Source: a virus. From it: DNA of 46,607 nucleotides. A program made the position numbers and the translations under genes. Below, piece after piece: positions 7,084-20,821 of this stretch (within the stretch, counting starts at the first letter, position 1; each line of letters begins with the position of its first letter). Where the stretch lies: positions 1 through 46,607 of the IMG/VR virus record IMGVR_UViG_3300007609_000037, one strand, 5' to 3'. Below the pieces are notes generated by a model, which saw nothing but the letters and a program-made list of their open reading frames with translations, did not search any database and was not told where the DNA came from.

Positions 7084-7227
7084 TTAATCTCTAGTCTTAC
7101 GACTCTTGTGAAAAGGGTCTTTCGACCCTCTCACGTATTGTACAAAGGTTATAGCCATTATACTCCATATATATCCTGCAGCTAATAGCGTCATTACTAT
7201 CGCTAAATCTATTATAAGTTTTTCCAA
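7084..7227 (-). CDS. 47-residue membrane peptide, TTG start
   Basis: From TTG 7227 (GGAG seven bases upstream) the peptide has one hydrophobic span (LAIVMTLLAAGYIWSIMAI) and a basic tail (SKDPFHKSRKTRD). It overlaps the end of the redox gene 7212-8447 by 16 bases and ends two bases before the holin ATG. It could be a second lysis membrane protein (antiholin or spanin-like) or belong to the redox block; the sequence does not decide. Confidence 0.55.
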   Translation of the reverse strand: MEKLIIDLAIVMTLLAAGYIWSIMAITFVQYVRGSKDPFHKSRKTRD

Positions 7228-8447
7228 GTAAATGCTCCAAAAAACATTTCGTCTTCCGACATCTGTCCCCAAGGTACGAGTCTGCTGGGGTCTGGATTCA
7301 TTGGGTTGTCTGCTGAGTTGTCAAACCAACCCTCCACATGTAGCTTAGTTCCTTTCGGCAAAAACTTAGGCTCACGCCAAGTATATGAAAGTTGCCAAGC
7401 ATATTCATAGCGTGGAATGTCAATAAGTTCTTCTACCTCACCATCTGGATAGTATGCTGTTGCTCTCATTGCCTTGCCCCGAAAGTGCATATGTGGCAAG
7501 AAGGTATGCAACATTACATCATTCTTTAGTACAACATCAGCCTCTTGTTTGAAGTTGGGATCATATGGTGGAATTGGTGTCCACTTATCAGGGAAGATAC
7601 AAGCACAGTCGCCTGCCATTCTTTCTTCTGGGACTACACCTTCATCGTGAAAGTATAAACCAATTCGTGCTTTGTCAGTTCTAGGAGTACCGTCAGGCGT
7701 ATAATGTAGTTGTAGATTTACTTTACTGCCTGCCCGCAATAAACCGCCTGTGTTCTCATCATAGAAGTCTGGATCACCTCCAGGAACATAGGCACTTACA
7801 CTAGCATAGTCCATATTTTGCTGTTCACCGCCTTGTGTACCAAGAATGTTTCTGTTTCTTTCTCCTGGCACTGACACTGAGTTAAGCATATGGTGCATTA
7901 CAGTAGGCTCAGAAGGAAGAAATTCTGAACCCCGTAGCCACTTATCTTCTGTGAGACCTAAGTCTACACCTACATAACGATAAGGAATAGCACTGGGGCC
8001 TGCAGGAATCTCTTGTGGCGGTACTTCAACAATCATATCAGGCTCACCGTGAACCCACTCAGAAGTAGAGTATACTGTCTCAGTGAGAGGGTCTCTATCC
8101 CCTTCTACAGGTGCGCCCGCATTGACCCACTCTACAATCGTATCCATCTCTAGATCGCTGAGTGTTCTATGGTTCACAATCACATCAGCATACTTGCGAT
8201 TGATCTGTCCTGGTGGCATATGCAACGTAGTGACTGCTTCTTTAATGGCAGGTGCAAATGCTTGAAGCATTCGATAGTCTGTCATAGCCCAAGGTGCAAT
8301 ACCTCCCTCTCTATGACAGCTCTGACACTGCTCTACAAAGATAGGTGCTACATTTTCTGCATAATCAATTTCTGCTCCATCAGCTCGTGCGCCTGCTAAC
8401 AGCACCATCAAACTAAAGGTCCACACAGATGCGTTTAGTCTACTCAT
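7212..8447 (-). CDS. Secreted cytochrome c-copper monooxygenase-like fusion 1
   Basis: From ATG 8447 (411 residues; overlaps the cytochrome c stop) it starts with a Sec signal peptide (hydrophobic 9-20). A monohaem c domain follows: C41-x2-C44-H45, with M77 in HMPPG as likely axial ligand. From about residue 130 the chain resembles the PHM/DBM copper type II monooxygenase fold: H185-H186 (MHHM) and H248 (LQLHY) for the CuH site, H319-x-H321 (PHMH) and M401 (SEDEM) for CuM. All six copper ligands are visible. Predicted periplasmic; the reaction and substrate are unknown. In eukaryotic relatives ascorbate supplies electrons; here the fused haem could. I find it very unusual for a phage. Confidence 0.85.
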   Translation of the reverse strand: MSRLNASVWTFSLMVLLAGARADGAEIDYAENVAPIFVEQCQSCHREGGIAPWAMTDYRMLQAFAPAIKEAVTTLHMPPGQINRKYADVIVNHRTLSDLEMDTIVEWVNAGAPVEGDRDPLTETVYSTSEWVHGEPDMIVEVPPQEIPAGPSAIPYRYVGVDLGLTEDKWLRGSEFLPSEPTVMHHMLNSVSVPGERNRNILGTQGGEQQNMDYASVSAYVPGGDPDFYDENTGGLLRAGSKVNLQLHYTPDGTPRTDKARIGLYFHDEGVVPEERMAGDCACIFPDKWTPIPPYDPNFKQEADVVLKNDVMLHTFLPHMHFRGKAMRATAYYPDGEVEELIDIPRYEYAWQLSYTWREPKFLPKGTKLHVEGWFDNSADNPMNPDPSRLVPWGQMSEDEMFFGAFTWKNL

Positions 8448-8811
8448 CTTTTGATATCTCCTTAATGTACTTTGCCATGAGAGTAATTTCATCATCGCTT
8501 AAAGTTGCTGCCTGACCAAACATAATACCGCTCATATCGCCACGGTGAATCATATTCTTGTAGTCCTGCAATGCTTCTGTAATTTGATCTTCCTCTAGAA
8601 AACTAAGTCCTGGGAATCCTGGTTTACCTTCTGCTTTATTACCGTGGCACGCTGCACACGTCTTCCACTTCATCTCTACGGAGCTAAAGTCTGCTTCTTG
8701 TGCGTATAGTGTTCTTGCACCCATCAATACTACAAATTGAAAAAATAAAAGTGCTACGAATCCTATTGCGCAACCCCATAGACCTTGTCTTGCTTGCTTT
8801 ACTGTTGGCAT
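8440..8811 (-). CDS. Secreted or membrane-anchored monohaem cytochrome c
   Basis: 123 residues. An N-terminal hydrophobic segment (12-30) may be a signal peptide or anchor. A small class I cytochrome c domain follows: haem site C52-A-A-C55-H56 and likely Met ligand M93 or M97 in GDMSGIMFGQ. The final helix LSDDEITLMAKYIKEI is typical of the family. It probably shuttles electrons in the periplasm, and an obvious hypothesis is that it feeds the two copper fusions on either side. GGAG lies seven bases before ATG. The host must provide haem and the Ccm machinery. Confidence 0.88.
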   Translation of the reverse strand: MPTVKQARQGLWGCAIGFVALLFFQFVVLMGARTLYAQEADFSSVEMKWKTCAACHGNKAEGKPGFPGLSFLEEDQITEALQDYKNMIHRGDMSGIMFGQAATLSDDEITLMAKYIKEISKDE

Positions 8812-8981
8812 TCATCTTCTCCATCAATAACTGCTTGGGATTGTTCTATCCACATCTGCATAGTTTTATTTGTTTTATAATTAGACTCTTTAGCTGCTTC
8901 ACCAAAAGTGTCAATAACCCACTGAGCGCAGTCTTTGCTGCGCCCGTGGTAATTTAGTACAGTATTAATCTCCTGTTCCAT
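8799..8981 (-). CDS. 60-residue soluble protein, unknown
   Basis: A small hydrophilic protein starting MEQEINTVLNYHGRSKDC and ending IDGEDECQQ, with no signal peptide or CxxCH. Its start overlaps the end of fusion 2 (8965-10251) and its end overlaps the cytochrome c start, so it is coupled within the redox operon. Function unknown. Confidence 0.55.
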   Translation of the reverse strand: MEQEINTVLNYHGRSKDCAQWVIDTFGEAAKESNYKTNKTMQMWIEQSQAVIDGEDECQQ

Positions 8982-10251
8982 ATCTCTCCTCTTTCAACTG
9001 CGCAAAGCCTTCCTCGTCTAAATGTGTGATAGCAAGCCAAGCATGAGTCATTTCGTCCCCGGTGCGAGATCCACCCATTACATACATATCTGGGTCAGGG
9101 TTATTTGGATTTTCACTTGTGTTATCATACCATTGCTTGAGAATGATAACTGCCCCTGCCGGAATTAAGGGCGCACTATCTGGAGCATACAGGTGACTGT
9201 GGTGCCACGTAGCACTCCATTTAGAAATCTGACTTACCTGTTCGGTGCGACCTGTTTCTGGATAAAAGATTTCAAGGCTTGCTGCATTCATACGCAAGTG
9301 ACCGTGAGGCTGAAAGCTATCTAGTCGCACAGGATGATCGAATGAATGAAAGCCCTGTGTCATAGCATATCCATTGGGAGGAATAACCAAGTCGTCTTGA
9401 TCCCCGAGGCGATATAAACTCAAATCTTGTTTGTATTTCAGTTGTTCGCTTTCCTCTTCGGTGTATAACCAGAGACCAATCTCTACCACGTTGTCTTTTA
9501 TAACTGAACCTGGTGCCATTGCCCCAAGACCGCCTGGGAACATGTGAATATCCCAACTGATTTGTGCGTTTGCTGGGATTGTACGACAAACTCCTTCTGG
9601 TACAATCTCTCCCCACTTTCCCATAGCGTACTCAGTGAGCATGCCTTCACGCCCTTCTGCTGTAAGAATACTAGAGTTAGCGTGATGCACTACAGACTTC
9701 GCTGCACCTCGTGGCTTTACTTGTACTGCTTTTATACAGCGATCTTCTGTAATACCACTAGGTACTAGGTGCTTGTGCCATAGATCATTGCCATTTGCAG
9801 GAATATCAATTGCTACACTAGGAATGATTGCATTGGGTGCGCCAAAGTCCGCTTCGAAATTCCATGCTTCTGGGTCTTTCATAGTGGGGGCTTGTACTAT
9901 TGTATCAGGATCTCCATAAACTGAGCCTTCATTTACCCAGGCTACTACAGTGTCAATATCTTCTTGTGCTAGTCGCCAATCACCTTGTAAGTCTTGAATA
10001 CCAATGCCGTGATCGTAAGCATAAGGAGGCATTTCTCGTGATGCTACTTTCATAGCAATCAGTGGAGCCCATGGACGGACTTGCTCGTAAGTTTCGAAAC
10101 TCATTGGACCGATGCCGCCTTGACGATGACATACTACACAGTTCTCGTTAATAATGTTCGCTACTTCTTGTGTATATGTCTGGGAAAAGGCTTTAGTGCC
10201 TATAACTAGGCCTACGCCAAAAGCTATTGTGTGTACTATTAATTTTTTCAT
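8965..10251 (-). CDS. Secreted cytochrome c-copper monooxygenase-like fusion 2
   Basis: 428 residues, paralogous in layout to the 7212-8447 product but clearly diverged. A signal peptide (about 1-24, ending KAFSQ) precedes a c-haem site C38-x2-C41-H42 with M74 in EMPPY as probable axial ligand. The copper domain keeps H189-H190 (VVHH), H236 (WDIHMF), H316-x-H318 (PHGH) and M401 (TGDEM). The shared tail motif NPxNPDP appears in both. It is first in the redox operon. A terminator lies just upstream (10261-10291) and I see no promoter between it and the ATG, so it is probably transcribed by read-through. Substrate unknown. Confidence 0.85.
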   Translation of the reverse strand: MKKLIVHTIAFGVGLVIGTKAFSQTYTQEVANIINENCVVCHRQGGIGPMSFETYEQVRPWAPLIAMKVASREMPPYAYDHGIGIQDLQGDWRLAQEDIDTVVAWVNEGSVYGDPDTIVQAPTMKDPEAWNFEADFGAPNAIIPSVAIDIPANGNDLWHKHLVPSGITEDRCIKAVQVKPRGAAKSVVHHANSSILTAEGREGMLTEYAMGKWGEIVPEGVCRTIPANAQISWDIHMFPGGLGAMAPGSVIKDNVVEIGLWLYTEEESEQLKYKQDLSLYRLGDQDDLVIPPNGYAMTQGFHSFDHPVRLDSFQPHGHLRMNAASLEIFYPETGRTEQVSQISKWSATWHHSHLYAPDSAPLIPAGAVIILKQWYDNTSENPNNPDPDMYVMGGSRTGDEMTHAWLAITHLDEEGFAQLKEERYGTGD

Positions 10252-10420: not shown

Positions 10421-10837
10421 CTAATTTATTGATATGGTAATGGGGCGATCTTCTTCTGGAATTTCTTCCTGAAGATCAATACAAAGCAATCCCCTATTCA
10501 TATACGCTTTTGAAAGTTTAATATGATCGCCTACTCGGAAATTGCGTGTAAAACATTTACCACTCAATCCCTTATAGACATATGTTTCATCCGGATTTTC
10601 TGTTTGCTTTGTAGTGCCTTTTACGCTAAGTACATTTTTATGTAGCGAGATTTCGATATCCTCTTTATGCCAGCCAGGTACTGCGATTTCAATTCTATAA
10701 TTGAAATCTCCTGCCTTTACGACATTATAACGAGGATAACCTCCATCTACTGTACTTGCAAAGAAGTCATCTTGTAAGCGGTCAAACCCAAGAAAAAATT
10801 TCGGCAGGTCTGCCATAGACAATTTATGTGTTGTCAT
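10421..10837 (-). CDS. Small heat shock protein Hsp20 (alpha-crystallin domain)
   Basis: 138 residues, IbpA type. The alpha-crystallin domain spans about 35-125: YRIEIAVPGWHKEDIEISLH, then LSVKG, the L9-like loop, and GLLCIDLQEEIPEEDRP. It has the short N-terminal arm LPKFFLGFDRL and a C-terminal ITISIN (I-x-I type) tail. It prevents aggregation of unfolded proteins; such genes are common in marine myo- and cyanophages, where a role in virion assembly is suspected. AGGAG precedes ATG. Confidence 0.93.
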   Translation of the reverse strand: MTTHKLSMADLPKFFLGFDRLQDDFFASTVDGGYPRYNVVKAGDFNYRIEIAVPGWHKEDIEISLHKNVLSVKGTTKQTENPDETYVYKGLSGKCFTRNFRVGDHIKLSKAYMNRGLLCIDLQEEIPEEDRPITISIN

Positions 10838-17490: not shown

Positions 17491-17519
17491 ATTATACTAA
17501 ACTCAAAGCACTTTGTCAA
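17491..17519 (-). promoter_or_regulatory. Sigma70 promoter for the 17473 operon
   Basis: On the minus strand, TTGACA (17514-17519), 17 bp, TATAAT (17491-17496). Confidence 0.87.
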
Positions 17520-17647
17520 TAACTTTTTGAGGCTTGGTCATTAAGGGAACGCACCCTAATTCCGGGGGCCGACACGGGGTCGAAAAATGTCAAGAATTAT
17601 TTGCTACAATTTACTAAAATTTTCTACAATAATCCTCGCCCTGCCCA

Positions 17648-17698
17648 GGTTTGCCCCAATTTGCCTCGGTTTGCCACAAATCGGCGCAAATCGCTACG
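17648..17698. repeat. Helically phased TTTGCC repeats
   Basis: TTTGCC occurs three times at an exact 10-base period (17650, 17660, 17670), followed by an inverted CGGCGCAAATCG. Iteron-like or operator-like. The rest of 17520-17753 shows no gene. Confidence 0.55.
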
Positions 17699-17753
17699 GG
17701 GTCACAACAAGACCTGCCCTTTCACATTAAATTGTGAAAAATTTAAAAAAGAC

Positions 17754-17783
17754 TTGACAAACCCCGTGGGGGTCTGCTATAAT
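17754..17783 (+). promoter_or_regulatory. Sigma70 promoter P1 of the tandem pair
   Basis: TTGACA (17754-17759), 18 bp, TATAAT (17778-17783). Confidence 0.83.
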
Positions 17784-17897
17784 CGGCGCCGCCCACCATT
17801 TTGCGTTGTTTTTCAACTTTGCACTTCGGCGCCCTGGCGGGGTCGTTACAAAGACCTGCCCTTCCGGGACTAATTTCACCGAATGTCAAAAAAAGAC

Positions 17898-17926
17898 TTG
17901 ACAAACCCCGCTCGGTTTGGTACAAT
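17898..17926 (+). promoter_or_regulatory. Sigma70 promoter P2 of the tandem pair
   Basis: TTGACA (17898-17903), 17 bp, TACAAT (17921-17926). Confidence 0.82.
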
Positions 17927-17983
17927 GGCGCGAGCGACACCATCGCGTTTGCACTTCGCTTTCGCACTGGCGCCCGCGCGCCG

Positions 17984-18004
17984 AAATGAGAATGATTCTC
18001 ATTT
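17984..18004. promoter_or_regulatory. Fur-box-like palindrome 1
   Basis: The core AATGAGAATGATTCTCATT is a perfect inverted repeat extended to 21 bp. It fits the Fur 7-1-7 model (TGANAAT-N-ATTNTCA). It lies 51-71 bases downstream of the expected P2 start and 40 bp before the terminator. Confidence 0.72.
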
Positions 18005-18043
18005 GGGATCTGCCATTTTGGAATAAGCGTTTTTTTATCGGAC

Positions 18044-18088
18044 AAAAAAAATCCGCCTGGCATTTTATGTGCGAGGCGGATTTTTTTG
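18044..18088. terminator. Bidirectional terminator of the PPK2 cassette
   Basis: Stem AAAAAAATCCGCCT with AGGCGGATTTTTTT, strong in both directions. Ends the leftward PPK2 operon and the rightward P1/P2 transcripts. Confidence 0.9.
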
Positions 18089-18099
18089 TAACGAGTGTT

Positions 18100-18189
18100 T
18101 TAGAATGAAAGTAAAAAACTGATCGGTAAATAAAATGCCGTTCCAAAAACGAAAAGGAAAAGCAAAGCGGTGAAAAAGTTATTGTCCAT
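18100..18189 (-). CDS. 29-residue membrane peptide
   Basis: It starts MDNNFFTALLFLFVFGTAFY and is hydrophobic almost throughout. AGGA lies eight bases upstream and the ATG overlaps the PPK2 stop (ATGGACAATAA), so it is coupled to ppk2. Last gene before the terminator. Function unknown. Confidence 0.6.
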   Translation of the reverse strand: MDNNFFTALLFLFVFGTAFYLPISFLLSF

Positions 18190-18796
18190 TTTTGAGTTCC
18201 TGAATCAATCGTTCCAGTAAGGCAAGGCGACCGGCTTTCTTATCATTGAAATCTATGACAATCCAATCCGCGCCAATGCAATCTTCTTTTGCGAGTGTCA
18301 TTCGATCGAAAGAGTCGAGCGCGAGTTTATCGTTCGCCGAAAATTTCCAGTAAGTGAGCGGCGATTTTTTGCGCTTGTTTAATCGTTCGGCTTGCTCGTC
18401 TTTTGAAATTGAAAGATAAAATTTAATGACGCGCGTTCCAGTCTGGCGTTCCCATGGAATGACATTCGCTAGAAAATTTTGCGCTTGTCGTTCGCTGCAC
18501 CAAGCGTTGACGCGCTGCACCAATGCGCGGCTATACCATGAGCGATCAAAGAATCGAACCTGCCCGCGATTTGGTAAACGCTTGTTCCAATAGCCGAACC
18601 AATTCTTCATAGCTCGCTTAGTAGGCTTTTTTGAATGTTCAATTGAGAATAATTTTGGCGGCAGGTATTTTGTCAGCATTTTAATAGTGCCGCTTTTTCC
18701 TGCCGAGTCTCTTCCTTCGAAAACAATAGCGAGCGAGTCGCTATTGTTCTCAACCAGTCGGTTTAATTCCGCTAGTAATTTTTTCTTGCTAGGCAT
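18179..18796 (-). CDS. ppk2: Polyphosphate kinase 2 (PPK2)
   Basis: From ATG 18796 (GGAGG seven bases upstream) the 205-residue protein shows the PPK2 signature: Walker A in VFEGRDSAGKSGTIKML (28-35 core), Walker B region RFFDRSWYSRAL (82-91; family FDRSWYNRA), and the lid RLNKRKKSPLTYWKFS (139-153). It uses inorganic polyphosphate to phosphorylate nucleotides, or the reverse. Shorter than many cellular PPK2s but the core is complete. In a phage it could make NTPs from host polyphosphate stores. It lies in the Fur-box-flanked operon with a phosphatase and an exonuclease. Confidence 0.9.
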   Translation of the reverse strand: MPSKKKLLAELNRLVENNSDSLAIVFEGRDSAGKSGTIKMLTKYLPPKLFSIEHSKKPTKRAMKNWFGYWNKRLPNRGQVRFFDRSWYSRALVQRVNAWCSERQAQNFLANVIPWERQTGTRVIKFYLSISKDEQAERLNKRKKSPLTYWKFSANDKLALDSFDRMTLAKEDCIGADWIVIDFNDKKAGRLALLERLIQELKNGQ

Positions 18797-19463
18797 TAAC
18801 GATCCTCCAAGGCATTGCAGATTTTTTGTTGTAAGGAATTTTTGCGCCAGTAGCAAAGCATCGCGCTAGAATTTCGGTCTCGATTATCGCATCGCTCAAA
18901 GCGGTATGGTCTTCAATGAATCCCCAGTTACCCGCGCAAAAGCGGTAAGCGTATTCCGCGCCTGTGCGAATATTTCCGGCATCGCTCACCCATCCCTGAG
19001 CCTGTGCAAGCTCTTTGTAAAGGCGAGTATTCAGTTTTGTCTCACAGGCGAATTGCCAAATGCAGAGCTGGTCGAGCGAGTGAGGTAGAACCTTATCGGT
19101 GAAGCCTAGCGCCTTATGAGTGTTACGCATTACGCGAGTGTCAAACGGCAGATTATAGGCAGCGAGAATATTAACGCCATGCTTTAAAATATCCGATCGC
19201 ATTGTTTCAATGATTGTTGTCCAAGCGGTCAATTTAATGTCGCCGCGTTGCAGCATTGGAGCATAGTGCGAAAATATTTTGCCCGCATAAAATGCGCCCA
19301 TCATCTTCTTGGCATCGGTGAAAATTTCCTCGACAAGCCAATTGCGAGTGCAAGCAATGTTGCCGCGCTTGTCCGTGATAGTGTAGCCGATATCGTAAAC
19401 CGAGCCAGTGAGATCCGCGGTCTCGGTGTCGAGAACCATAATTATTTTTTTCGTGTTATTCAT
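18789..19463 (-). CDS. DnaQ/RNase T-like 3'-5' exonuclease (DEDDh)
   Basis: 224 residues with ExoI VLDTETADL (D12, E14), ExoII AAYNLPFDTRVM (D108) and ExoIII DHTALSDAIIE (H186, D191), the full DEDDh set. Extra segments (about 40-90, 125-180) suggest a phage-specific domain. It probably trims DNA or RNA 3' ends; nucleotide recycling fits the neighbours (HAD phosphatase, PPK2). The ATG overlaps the HAD stop, and the stop overlaps the PPK2 start. Confidence 0.87.
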   Translation of the reverse strand: MNNTKKIIMVLDTETADLTGSVYDIGYTITDKRGNIACTRNWLVEEIFTDAKKMMGAFYAGKIFSHYAPMLQRGDIKLTAWTTIIETMRSDILKHGVNILAAYNLPFDTRVMRNTHKALGFTDKVLPHSLDQLCIWQFACETKLNTRLYKELAQAQGWVSDAGNIRTGAEYAYRFCAGNWGFIEDHTALSDAIIETEILARCFATGAKIPYNKKSAMPWRIVNA

Positions 19464-19942
19464 TAGAGCGACTCCCTAGCATTGCAAGCGGTAGCATTGT
19501 TTACCATTATTCCCGAAGCGGAAAGCATGTCGATAACCTCTAGATTATCGTCAAACATCTCACAGCGCGAAGCGAAGCCTCGCCAAGATAGCGAGAGTTT
19601 ATTCGCAAGCTCGTACAGCTTACAGAATTTTAGCATCGCATCGCCGCGCTGATCGCCTTCCTCTCGTGAAACCATAAACTCATAACGAAGCCCATGGGAT
19701 TCGAGAAACTCATAATCCGCGCCGCTCATTACGCGAGCCGTGCAAACGATGATAAAATTGTCGCGGATATCTTGAACGGCTCGCCAGTGATCGGCAAGCG
19801 GTAGGAGTGTATCGGCGAAAATTTTCTCGCGTGTGCAGTTTTCGCGCCAGTGATTGAGGTCGAGAGAACCGTCCAAGCGAGTAAGTTTTCGGTGGTCGCT
19901 GTTGACGATTGTGCCATCGAGATCAAAGATAGTGAAAATCAT
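19463..19942 (-). CDS. HAD-family phosphatase
   Basis: 159 residues. Motif I FDLDGT (D7 nucleophile, D9), motif II IIVCTAR (T68), probable motif III lysine K105 and motif IV MFDDNLEVID (D131, D132). This resembles the 3'-phosphatase domain of T4 polynucleotide kinase and small nucleotidases. It may remove phosphates from nucleotides or DNA/RNA ends. ATG overlaps the stop of the membrane frame (ATGA). Confidence 0.82.
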   Translation of the reverse strand: MIFTIFDLDGTIVNSDHRKLTRLDGSLDLNHWRENCTREKIFADTLLPLADHWRAVQDIRDNFIIVCTARVMSGADYEFLESHGLRYEFMVSREEGDQRGDAMLKFCKLYELANKLSLSWRGFASRCEMFDDNLEVIDMLSASGIMVNNATACNARESL

Positions 19943-20112
19943 AATATATAACCTGTAATTCCAATAATGTTAAGAGCGATTAAGTTTGCTGTCTTGTTGC
20001 GTATTGCTTGGATTGTGAGAAGCGCCAAACCTGTCGCTGCTAATGCCTTGCCTTCTGGCGAGTCGATAATGAAAGGGGCGACGGCAAGAGCCGCCGCGCC
20101 TGTCCAATCTAA
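19939..20112 (-). CDS. Small membrane protein without a visible start codon
   Basis: The frame encodes TGAAALAVAPFIIDSPEGKA, then LAATGLALLTIQAIRNKTAN and a hydrophobic end (LIALNIIGITGYIL), about 57 residues with two membrane segments. The stop overlaps the HAD ATG (TTATGA), as in coupled genes. The open frame continues upstream into the HTH/SAP gene, but no ATG, GTG or TTG lies in the right place. Options are a non-standard start, a ribosomal frameshift from the upstream gene, or a sequence error. Confidence 0.5.
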   Translation of the reverse strand, partial: LDWTGAAALAVAPFIIDSPEGKALAATGLALLTIQAIRNKTANLIALNIIGITGYIL

Positions 20113-20417
20113 CCCGCTGAGAGTGAGTCTAGCAAGTTTGCCAAGCTCTGAGCGGTCGCTTTCTCTAGTCCGCTCAGTTTGGCGTTGGTCTTTTTTGCGA
20201 TGGCATCTACCAATTGCGATTTTGTTGCGCCTTTCGCGCGTTTTGCAGCCGGTGCTTTGGCAATATATTCGATGCCTTCGGCTTTGGCTTTTGCTATAAT
20301 AGATTGAGTCGAAGCAAGCTTAAAATCGCTGTCATTCGCGATCAATGCTTTCACAGTATCGAGCGAGAGAGGAGCGGCTTTGACCATTGTGTCAAGCATT
20401 TTCTTTGAGTATTCCAT
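20109..20417 (-). CDS. HTH/SAP-like small DNA-binding protein in the Fur-flanked operon
   Basis: 102 residues from ATG 20417 (GGAG seven bases upstream; the TTG at 20429 is disfavoured). It shares the family plan: helical N-terminal half (KKMLDTMVKAAPLSLDTVKA, then TQSIIAKAKAEG), basic linker (KAPAAKRAKGATKSQL), and the motif GLEKATAQSLANLLDSLSAG. The linker plus C-terminal part resembles a SAP or Rho-N-like hairpin. It is the first gene of the cassette operon and may bind its own control region. A Fur-like box lies just upstream of its ribosome site. Confidence 0.72.
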   Translation of the reverse strand: MEYSKKMLDTMVKAAPLSLDTVKALIANDSDFKLASTQSIIAKAKAEGIEYIAKAPAAKRAKGATKSQLVDAIAKKTNAKLSGLEKATAQSLANLLDSLSAG

Positions 20418-20427
20418 AATTTTCTCC

Positions 20428-20447
20428 AATTGAGAATGATTCTCGTT
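20428..20447. promoter_or_regulatory. Fur-box-like palindrome 2
   Basis: TTGAGAATGATTCTCGTTT: TGAGAAT-G-ATTCTCG, 14 of 15 core positions symmetrical. It lies just upstream of the ribosome site of the cassette operon. Confidence 0.7.
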
Positions 20448-20483
20448 TAGTCCTGAGCGACCCCATGCCGTCTCAGTGATGTA

Positions 20484-20511
20484 ATCTTAGCAAATTGGGC
20501 GAGGAGTGCAA
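20484..20511 (-). promoter_or_regulatory. Probable promoter 1 of the cassette operon
   Basis: On the minus strand, TTGCAC (20506-20511), 16 bp, TAAGAT (20484-20489), followed by ATTAC. Its -10 region repeats that of the next promoter. Confidence 0.6.
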
Positions 20512-20573
20512 GCATTATTTTGTATCAGTTTGTACCAGTTTTGTCTGCTTGCGCGTTCCCGTCCAACAAAGTA

Positions 20574-20602
20574 ATCATAGCAAAATGAGCCAAAAAGAAC
20601 AA
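20574..20602 (-). promoter_or_regulatory. Probable promoter 2 of the cassette operon
   Basis: On the minus strand, TTGTTC (20597-20602), 17 bp, TATGAT (20574-20579). A tandem copy of the element 90 bp downstream (shared TTTGCTAxGATTAC). Confidence 0.6.
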
Positions 20603-20685
20603 TGAAAAATTTCGATAATAAATCGAATTTTCGCATAGAAAAACGATCGTTCTGCAAGTCACATGAAATGCCAGGAGGGGGCGGT

Positions 20686-20704
20686 AATGAGACTCATTCT
20701 CATT
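20686..20704. promoter_or_regulatory. Fur-box-like palindrome 3
   Basis: AATGAGACTCATTCTCATT; differs from palindrome 1 by one symmetrical position (and the centre). It is flanked by a GCGCGC segment, as box 1 is, in inverted orientation. Confidence 0.65.
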
Positions 20705-20727
20705 TGGAGCTCGCGCGCTCCCCCACA

Positions 20728-20821
20728 CGTACAACTTTATAAAAATTGAAGAAAGCATAAACGGAGTCTCAACGGGGTTGTTGCGTACAACTTTATAAAA
20801 TTGAAAGAAAGCATAAAACGG
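20728..20821. repeat. Two direct repeats, 56-bp spacing
   Basis: Copies at about 20728-20764 and 20784-20820 share CGTACAACTTTATAAAA, then TTGAAGAAAGCATAAA and ACGG. The only other contents of 20448-20928 are the promoters and box 3. Confidence 0.7.

Follow-up and report, generated by a model that had tools for sequence, protein, structure and literature searches.

Fur-type palindromes in the predicted terminal repeat of a small T5-type phage and in the injection stop signal of T5

The halt that bacteriophage T5 makes after about 8% of its DNA has entered the cell is an old open question. The second-step transfer that follows was called poorly understood in 2026, and the injection stop signal (ISS), made of palindromes, repeats and DnaA boxes, may bind host components; secondary structure or host components are among the ideas published for its action (PMC13250531). 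Host Fur sites are known from phages of another kind, temperate lambda-like coliphages, in which a Fur box controls the lysogen's iron and manganese uptake operon sitABCD (PMC6969025). Here we describe three Fur-box-like palindromes in a 46,607-nucleotide IMG/VR virus record (IMGVR_UViG_3300007609_000037, positions 1 to 46,607; the window hereafter is this whole stretch), which, unlike the sitABCD phages, is T5-type and has no iron gene that we could see in its predicted terminal repeat. A preliminary description of the window had pointed out the palindromes and knew of no described phage with iron-responsive control or Fur titration; sitABCD is in fact a precedent for Fur control of a phage gene. 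It had also overlooked the setting: all three sites lie in a predicted T5-type terminal repeat, and palindromes of the same type occur in the ISS of T5.

Judged by its genes, the window is a small T5-type phage. Its large terminase subunit TerL is 48% identical to that of T5 (E 1e-132) and 49% identical to that of Vibrio phage PG07, and relatives of the T5 TerS, TerL, HNH, portal, head and tail proteins follow one another along the window in T5 order. Homologous and collinear terminase, head and tail genes are thus combined with a two-part (split) NAD ligase region, as in T5, which makes the phage Demerecviridae-like. When the T5 first-step-transfer proteins were compared with the window, Dmp alone had a relative; none was found for A1 or A2 in any open reading frame (ORF) at E 0.1, in a contig that may be incomplete.

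The three palindromes are present at the positions given in the preliminary description, the first being indeed a perfect 21-bp inverted repeat, and one of them does lie just upstream of the ribosome site of an operon, as it had said.

17984-18004, no strand assigned: site 1, AAATGAGAATGATTCTCATTT, a perfect 21-bp odd palindrome inside the predicted ISS tract
20428-20447, minus strand: site 2, AATTGAGAATGATTCTCGTT, two mismatches to AATGAGAATNATTCTCATT, between the promoter of the leftward operon and its Shine-Dalgarno sequence
20686-20704, minus strand: site 3, AATGAGACTCATTCTCATT, one mismatch to AATGAGAATNATTCTCATT, reading leftwards AATGAGAATGAGTCTCATT, within the left-end element of the terminal repeat

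Allowing up to two mismatches, the literal pattern TGANAATNATTNTCA occurs 7 times in the window against 4.5 expected, which is not unusual by itself; the three best matches, with 0, 1 and 1 mismatch, stand out when a matrix is used. A matrix made only of nine E. coli Fur promoters, taken from the matches of the phage-matrix scan described below, gave sites 1, 2 and 3 scores of 24.4, 21.9 and 19.5, the three highest in the window, followed by 13.5. The maximum in 60 Markov-1 windows averaged 13.8 (sd 1.6) and never exceeded 17.2, and leave-one-out versions of the matrix changed the scores little. The Fur sites of E. coli itself score 18.2-22.1 on this matrix, so that the three phage sites reach the level of real host Fur sites, falling within or above that range, with E. 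coli as a stand-in host. On this stand-in the proposal of the preliminary description withstands its own refuting condition, a failure to outscore host Fur sites.

The same relation was seen in the opposite direction, and together the two strongly support the fit to the Fur model proposed in the preliminary description. A matrix of the phage palindromes was scanned on 294 kb of E. coli K-12 in six chunks, five of them picked for containing Fur-regulated genes and the sixth serving as control. Its top 13 matches include the promoters of fecI, fhuA, fepB/entC (two sites), fecA, cirA, fepA/fes, fepD/entS and fiu; the other four lie in the map/rpsB intergenic region (the top match), upstream of dps, in an intergenic region at 2233861 and inside fruA. 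The control chunk contained no score above 8.4; with the matrix reversed, a single score of 12 was followed by 6.9. A matrix built on T5-like phages only behaved in the same way. The half-sites of the phage palindromes vary among GAG, GAT, GCG and GCA, which is what Fur boxes would show, and the E. coli boxes (fecI, fhuA, entC, cirA and others) share with them both the 19-bp 7-1-7 consensus and these tolerated changes. On the strength of the motif, the most likely ligand is the host Fur protein. The alternative that the preliminary description had put forward, the HTH/SAP protein of the operon, found no support; nothing favours it, the motif being common to T5-like phages and Dmp the only first-step-transfer kin in the window.

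The motif is widespread among phages, its exact form AATGAGAATNATTCTCATT occurring in at least 120 IMG/VR viral stretches (L021-L140) against one for the reversed control. In these stretches 74 of the 132 sites lie outside predicted ORFs, though ORFs span 87% of the sequence. The best match of the phage matrix in E. coli K-12, ATTGAGAATCATTCTGAAT at 189581 between map and rpsB (L191), is to our knowledge not among the known Fur targets.

The nine Demerecviridae that were scanned have 3 to 9 distinct Fur-like places each, and the motif scan found no such site in T4, N4 or lambda; one expected in lambda was likewise absent. In T5, the Fur-like sites at 9552, 9587, 9656 and 9691 all lie inside the annotated ISS (9140-10149), and on the T5 record the E. 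coli matrix gives its six top scores to ISS sites, three per repeat copy (25.5, 20.9 and 20.3). Clusters of Fur-like sites, often with a 35-bp spacing, are found near the inner end of the repeat in Sw2, phiR2-01, EscoHU1, My1, PG07 and X1, and fewer sites in AhSzq-1 and pVp-1. The PG07 cluster lies in a gene-free gap that also contains DnaA boxes (those of T5 were read by eye). Furthermore, relatives of the window, fetched by the left-end 27-mer described below or by protein and not by the Fur motif, have 23 Fur-like sites in 116 kb on the repeat side, with the end palindrome excluded, against one in 240 kb on the other side. This enrichment, the matrix null and the reversed-motif control rule out a chance origin of the palindromes. 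Unlike the Fur boxes of Gammaproteobacteria, then, the phage sites are mostly outside promoters, in first-entering DNA and often in 35-bp arrays.

An exact parS-like sequence, GTTTCACGTGAAAC, was seen in the ISS-equivalent tract of marine relatives (L009 and L011/L012 at 8402, L016 at 7105 and 7129, L017/L018 at 6693, L099 at 3202), sometimes 25-53 bp from a Fur-like site; eight Demerecviridae records tested for it had none.

The repeat of the window was predicted from sequence elements for its two ends, and all three sites fall within it: at its end, before its operon and in its noncoding tract.

20674-20748, minus strand: left-end (terminase cut) element of the terminal repeat, AAAGTTGTACGTG-TGGGGG / AGCGCGCGAGCTCCA-AATGAGAATGAGTCTCATTACCGCCCCC, predicted cut at 20719/20720
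17560-17605, minus strand: predicted inner (right) end of the repeat, TGTAGCAAATAATTCTTGACA-N20-GGCCCCC, cut about 26-30 bases past the start of TTGACA (about 17567)
17567-18045, no strand assigned: noncoding tract matching the T5 ISS (predicted), judged by its location, with the pre-early operon on one side and the predicted inner end on the other

At the left end, a 27-mer (AATGAGAATGAGTCTCATTACCGCCCC) recurs without mismatch in 35 IMG/VR stretches whose flanks differ widely, preceded at a near-constant distance by GTACGTG-NGGGG, and variants of the element without the palindrome retain these flanks and the core GTCT..TAACCGCCCC. When the 27-mer element was compared by BLAST with phage records, T5-like phages matched at bases 14-44 of their long terminal repeat. 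An attachment site, which had been considered for the 27-mer, was dropped after this match, and a plasmid collection gave no meaningful match. A hidden Markov model (HMM) made from the marine left-end copies found the repeat starts of PG07, Sw2, phiR2-01, EscoHU1 and My1 at E 7e-14 to 1.6e-11. The starts in Sw2, EscoHU1 and My1 are annotated or placed by PhageTerm, that of Sw2 by PhageTerm, and the element of phiR2-01 adjoins the annotated repeat. For T5 itself the model picked out the correct position with an E-value of 0.69, and the E. coli decoys all stayed at E 8 or higher. The junctions read ACATGAAGGTG/TGTCC...GTCTGCTAACCGCC in T5 and ACGTGTGGGGG/AGCGC...GTCTCATTACCGCC in the window.

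Site 3 is thus a Fur-type palindrome merged with a terminase cut element, and the left end is predicted at 20719/20720. Its one deviation (ATT to AGT, read leftwards) fits the conserved core of that element, GTCT-NN-(T/A)TA(A)CCGCCCC, which it overlaps. The Fur-like palindrome of the preliminary description is confirmed here; what does not hold is a free-standing Fur box. Left-end elements with GTACGTG...GTCT..TAACCGCC in which other sequence replaces the palindrome were seen in L009-L012, L016, L023, L027, L052, L057, L076, L077, L090, L091 and L098, an example being CGTCAAAATTTTGACG in L009; the replacing sequences are possibly sites of other host proteins.

The inner-end block, GTAGCAAATAATTCTTGACA-N20-GGCCCCCGGAATT (17605-17560), is common to L005, L006, L013, L016, L096, L164 and L173, and in loci containing both elements it lies on the same strand as the left-end element, about 2.7-4.1 kb inside. 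Annotated T5-type inner ends read GGGGCAAAATAGCTTGACAAGTGAAAATTTCTGTGGCTC/TAAAAAC. A marine inner-end HMM, run on about 0.35 Mb, had its two best matches at such annotated ends, in phiR2-01 and EscoHU1, with weak E-values (0.45 and 3.3). The repeat is accordingly predicted at about 17567-20719, some 3.15 kb or 6.8% of the contig against 8% of the genome in T5. Just outside this end, at 17491-17519 on the minus strand, a perfect sigma-70 consensus promoter (TTGACA-17-TATAAT) was observed for the next leftward operon.

The noncoding tract was compared with the T5 ISS and with the gap of PG07 (109609-111074). Like the published ISS it holds both a palindrome, site 1, and direct repeats in the form of a duplicated block. 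Relatives of site 1 stand at the same place in L006, as two copies 35 bp apart in L013, and as a Fur-like site together with parS in L017. Within 17754-18087, the duplicated block carries two strong promoters (TTGACA/TATAAT and TTGACA/TACAAT) that read rightward towards site 1 and a hairpin terminator; the interval has no convincing ORF and is a candidate for a short noncoding transcript of about 155 nt.

The remainder of the predicted repeat is taken up by a leftward operon:

20484-20512, minus strand: promoter-like TTGCAC-N17-TAAGAT of the operon, read by eye and absent from the list of the consensus scan
20109-20417, minus strand: SAP-like protein of 102 aa, whose gene opens the predicted first-step-transfer operon, without a match in Pfam or PHROG
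19463-19942, minus strand: HAD phosphatase, a relative of T5 Dmp (deoxynucleoside-5'-monophosphatase; 47% over 85 aa, E 9e-19) and of PG07 Dmp (32%, E 2e-22)
18789-19463, minus strand: DnaQ-like exonuclease (phrog_20187, E 4.5e-47; phrog_192 'DNA polymerase exonuclease subunit', E 1.6e-5)
18179-18796, minus strand: polyphosphate kinase 2 (PPK2; Pfam PF03976, E 3e-48)
18045-18087, no strand assigned: hairpin with T-runs on both sides (inverted repeat, 94% complementary), which probably closes the operon as a bidirectional terminator

Inwards from the left end, the order is the SAP protein, the Dmp relative, the exonuclease, PPK2, the terminator and the tract with site 1. This resembles the T5 repeat and ISS in the left-end element, the position of Dmp near the end, the succession of pre-early genes and a noncoding tract with the same 19-bp palindromes, and the terminase genes on the other side. 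It differs in length (about 3.15 kb as predicted, against 10.2 kb), in the apparent lack of A1 and A2 relatives and in the presence of PPK2 and the exonuclease; the window also has one ISS palindrome and not an array, and extra palindromes at the repeat end and at the start of the operon. The PPK2 within this predicted first-step-transfer DNA is conserved in eight viral loci, with identities of about 47-90%.

Together, this evidence suggests, with a probability that we put at roughly 0.5, that the three palindromes are host Fur binding sites in a T5-type repeat and belong to its ISS or entry-control DNA, site 2 serving the pre-early operon as well. What the sequence shows is the kinship with T5, the left-end element, a Fur-type motif confined almost entirely to the repeat side, and the occurrence of the same sites in the T5 ISS. 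The terminal repeat would be, as in T5, the DNA that enters the cell first, and Fur-Fe(II) would bind its sites on the entering DNA. Near the inner end, the array (site 1 here, several sites in T5-like phages) and sites for other host proteins, such as the DnaA boxes of T5 and PG07 and parS in some marine relatives, would build the nucleoprotein block of the ISS, and this block would pause the transfer until pre-early proteins release it. Such a proposal fits the published view of an ISS acting through secondary structure or host components (PMC13250531). At site 3, Fur would be added to the packaging end. The position of site 2, with the promoter on one side and the ribosome site on the other, makes it plausible that Fur also, or instead, controls the pre-early operon, by repression or timing. 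The wider notion that T5-type phages use host Fur, with DnaA or ParB in some lineages, as a physical latch, so that the entry pause depends on Fur and on the iron state, is put forward more tentatively.

Several points weigh against this interpretation. Some relatives (L009 and L016 among them) have no Fur-like site, so that such sites are not essential to the architecture, and the left end of T5 has the core element but no palindrome there. In the window site 1 is single and not in an array, no DnaA box was detected by the exact pattern TTATCCACA, and the match at the right end is the weak one reported above. Fur binding at the sites of the window and of T5 is a prediction, and the scores use the E. 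coli motif, which may not be that of the host. Finally, the covariation test, in which the arms of the palindromes show no covariation (228 paired positions against 234 expected) and which favours protein half-sites over hairpins, used palindromic instances that had been selected for palindrome likeness.

Fur could bind the same sites for transcription, repressing the pre-early operon at site 2 and a short rightward transcript beside site 1 and so tying expression to the iron of the host, an account that we consider unlikely. In its favour, L004-L008 retain site 2 in its position between promoter and Shine-Dalgarno sequence, with half-site changes of the Fur type; a Fur-like site occurs in PG07 at 106872, in the gap between divergent pre-early genes; two strong promoters point at site 1; and the Fur box that precedes sitABCD on lambda-like phages sets a precedent (PMC6969025). 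Against it, no obvious promoter overlaps sites 1 and 3 or the regular 35-bp arrays of T5-like phages, and the predicted repeat lacks a visible iron gene. It is somewhat less probable still that the palindromes are packaging marks, read by the terminase or another phage protein to define both repeat ends, with the likeness to Fur boxes due to coincidence or ancestry. A packaging-only role is nevertheless a serious rival, because the distance between the last palindrome and the inner end is nearly constant (510-521 bp) in T5, Sw2, phiR2-01, EscoHU1 and My1, whose repeats measure 9.8-12.9 kb, although this may be no more than a homologous block shared by the four closest phages. The fusion of site 3 to the left-end element points the same way; against it, the T5 left end has no palindrome, several relatives keep the element without one, the tolerance for half-site changes is that of Fur, and the phage matrix recovers E. 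coli Fur promoters.

Titration, in which the sites would sequester host Fur and so release iron uptake or its outer-membrane receptors from repression, is to us the weakest option and highly improbable. The sites score high and occur in several copies, FhuA is listed in the E. coli record as a receptor for phages, and many T5-like phages use TonB-dependent receptors; an incoming genome brings few sites to thousands of Fur molecules, however, and titration would become relevant only after replication. Equally poor odds attach to hairpins or cruciforms, in DNA or RNA, that would block the injection channel or give a transcript its structure. The sites are inverted repeats, and secondary structure figures among the published ideas on the T5 ISS (PMC13250531), but there is no compensatory change between the arms, and the identity of the sequence is kept across very different phages. 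An RNA element was rejected on the same lack of covariation, on the absence of any Rfam match, and on the pairing of G-run and C-run around site 3, which is lost in relatives such as L143, L148 and L163.

T5-type repeats, the ISS and host Fur boxes at the sit operons of lambda-like phages were already known (PMC6969025). In the open literature we found no account of Fur-type sites as a hallmark of T5-type first-step-transfer DNA, and primary ISS papers outside that scope may remark on Fur; no link between phage entry and iron was found in the literature searched. Naming the palindromes as Fur boxes supplies a concrete host protein that is testable in E. coli K-12, for which fur mutants exist, and, if true, would tie phage entry to the iron status of the cell. 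With the window, the T5-type architecture known from large enteric phages extends to an environmental relative of 47 kb, and the markers derived for the two repeat ends offer a means of locating termini in metagenomic contigs.

Elsewhere in the window, at 7212-10251, three minus-strand ORFs have CxxCH haem-type motifs, one of them matching cytochrome c (PF00034). They look like a redox auxiliary-gene cluster and adjoin a small heat-shock-like protein at 10421-10837.

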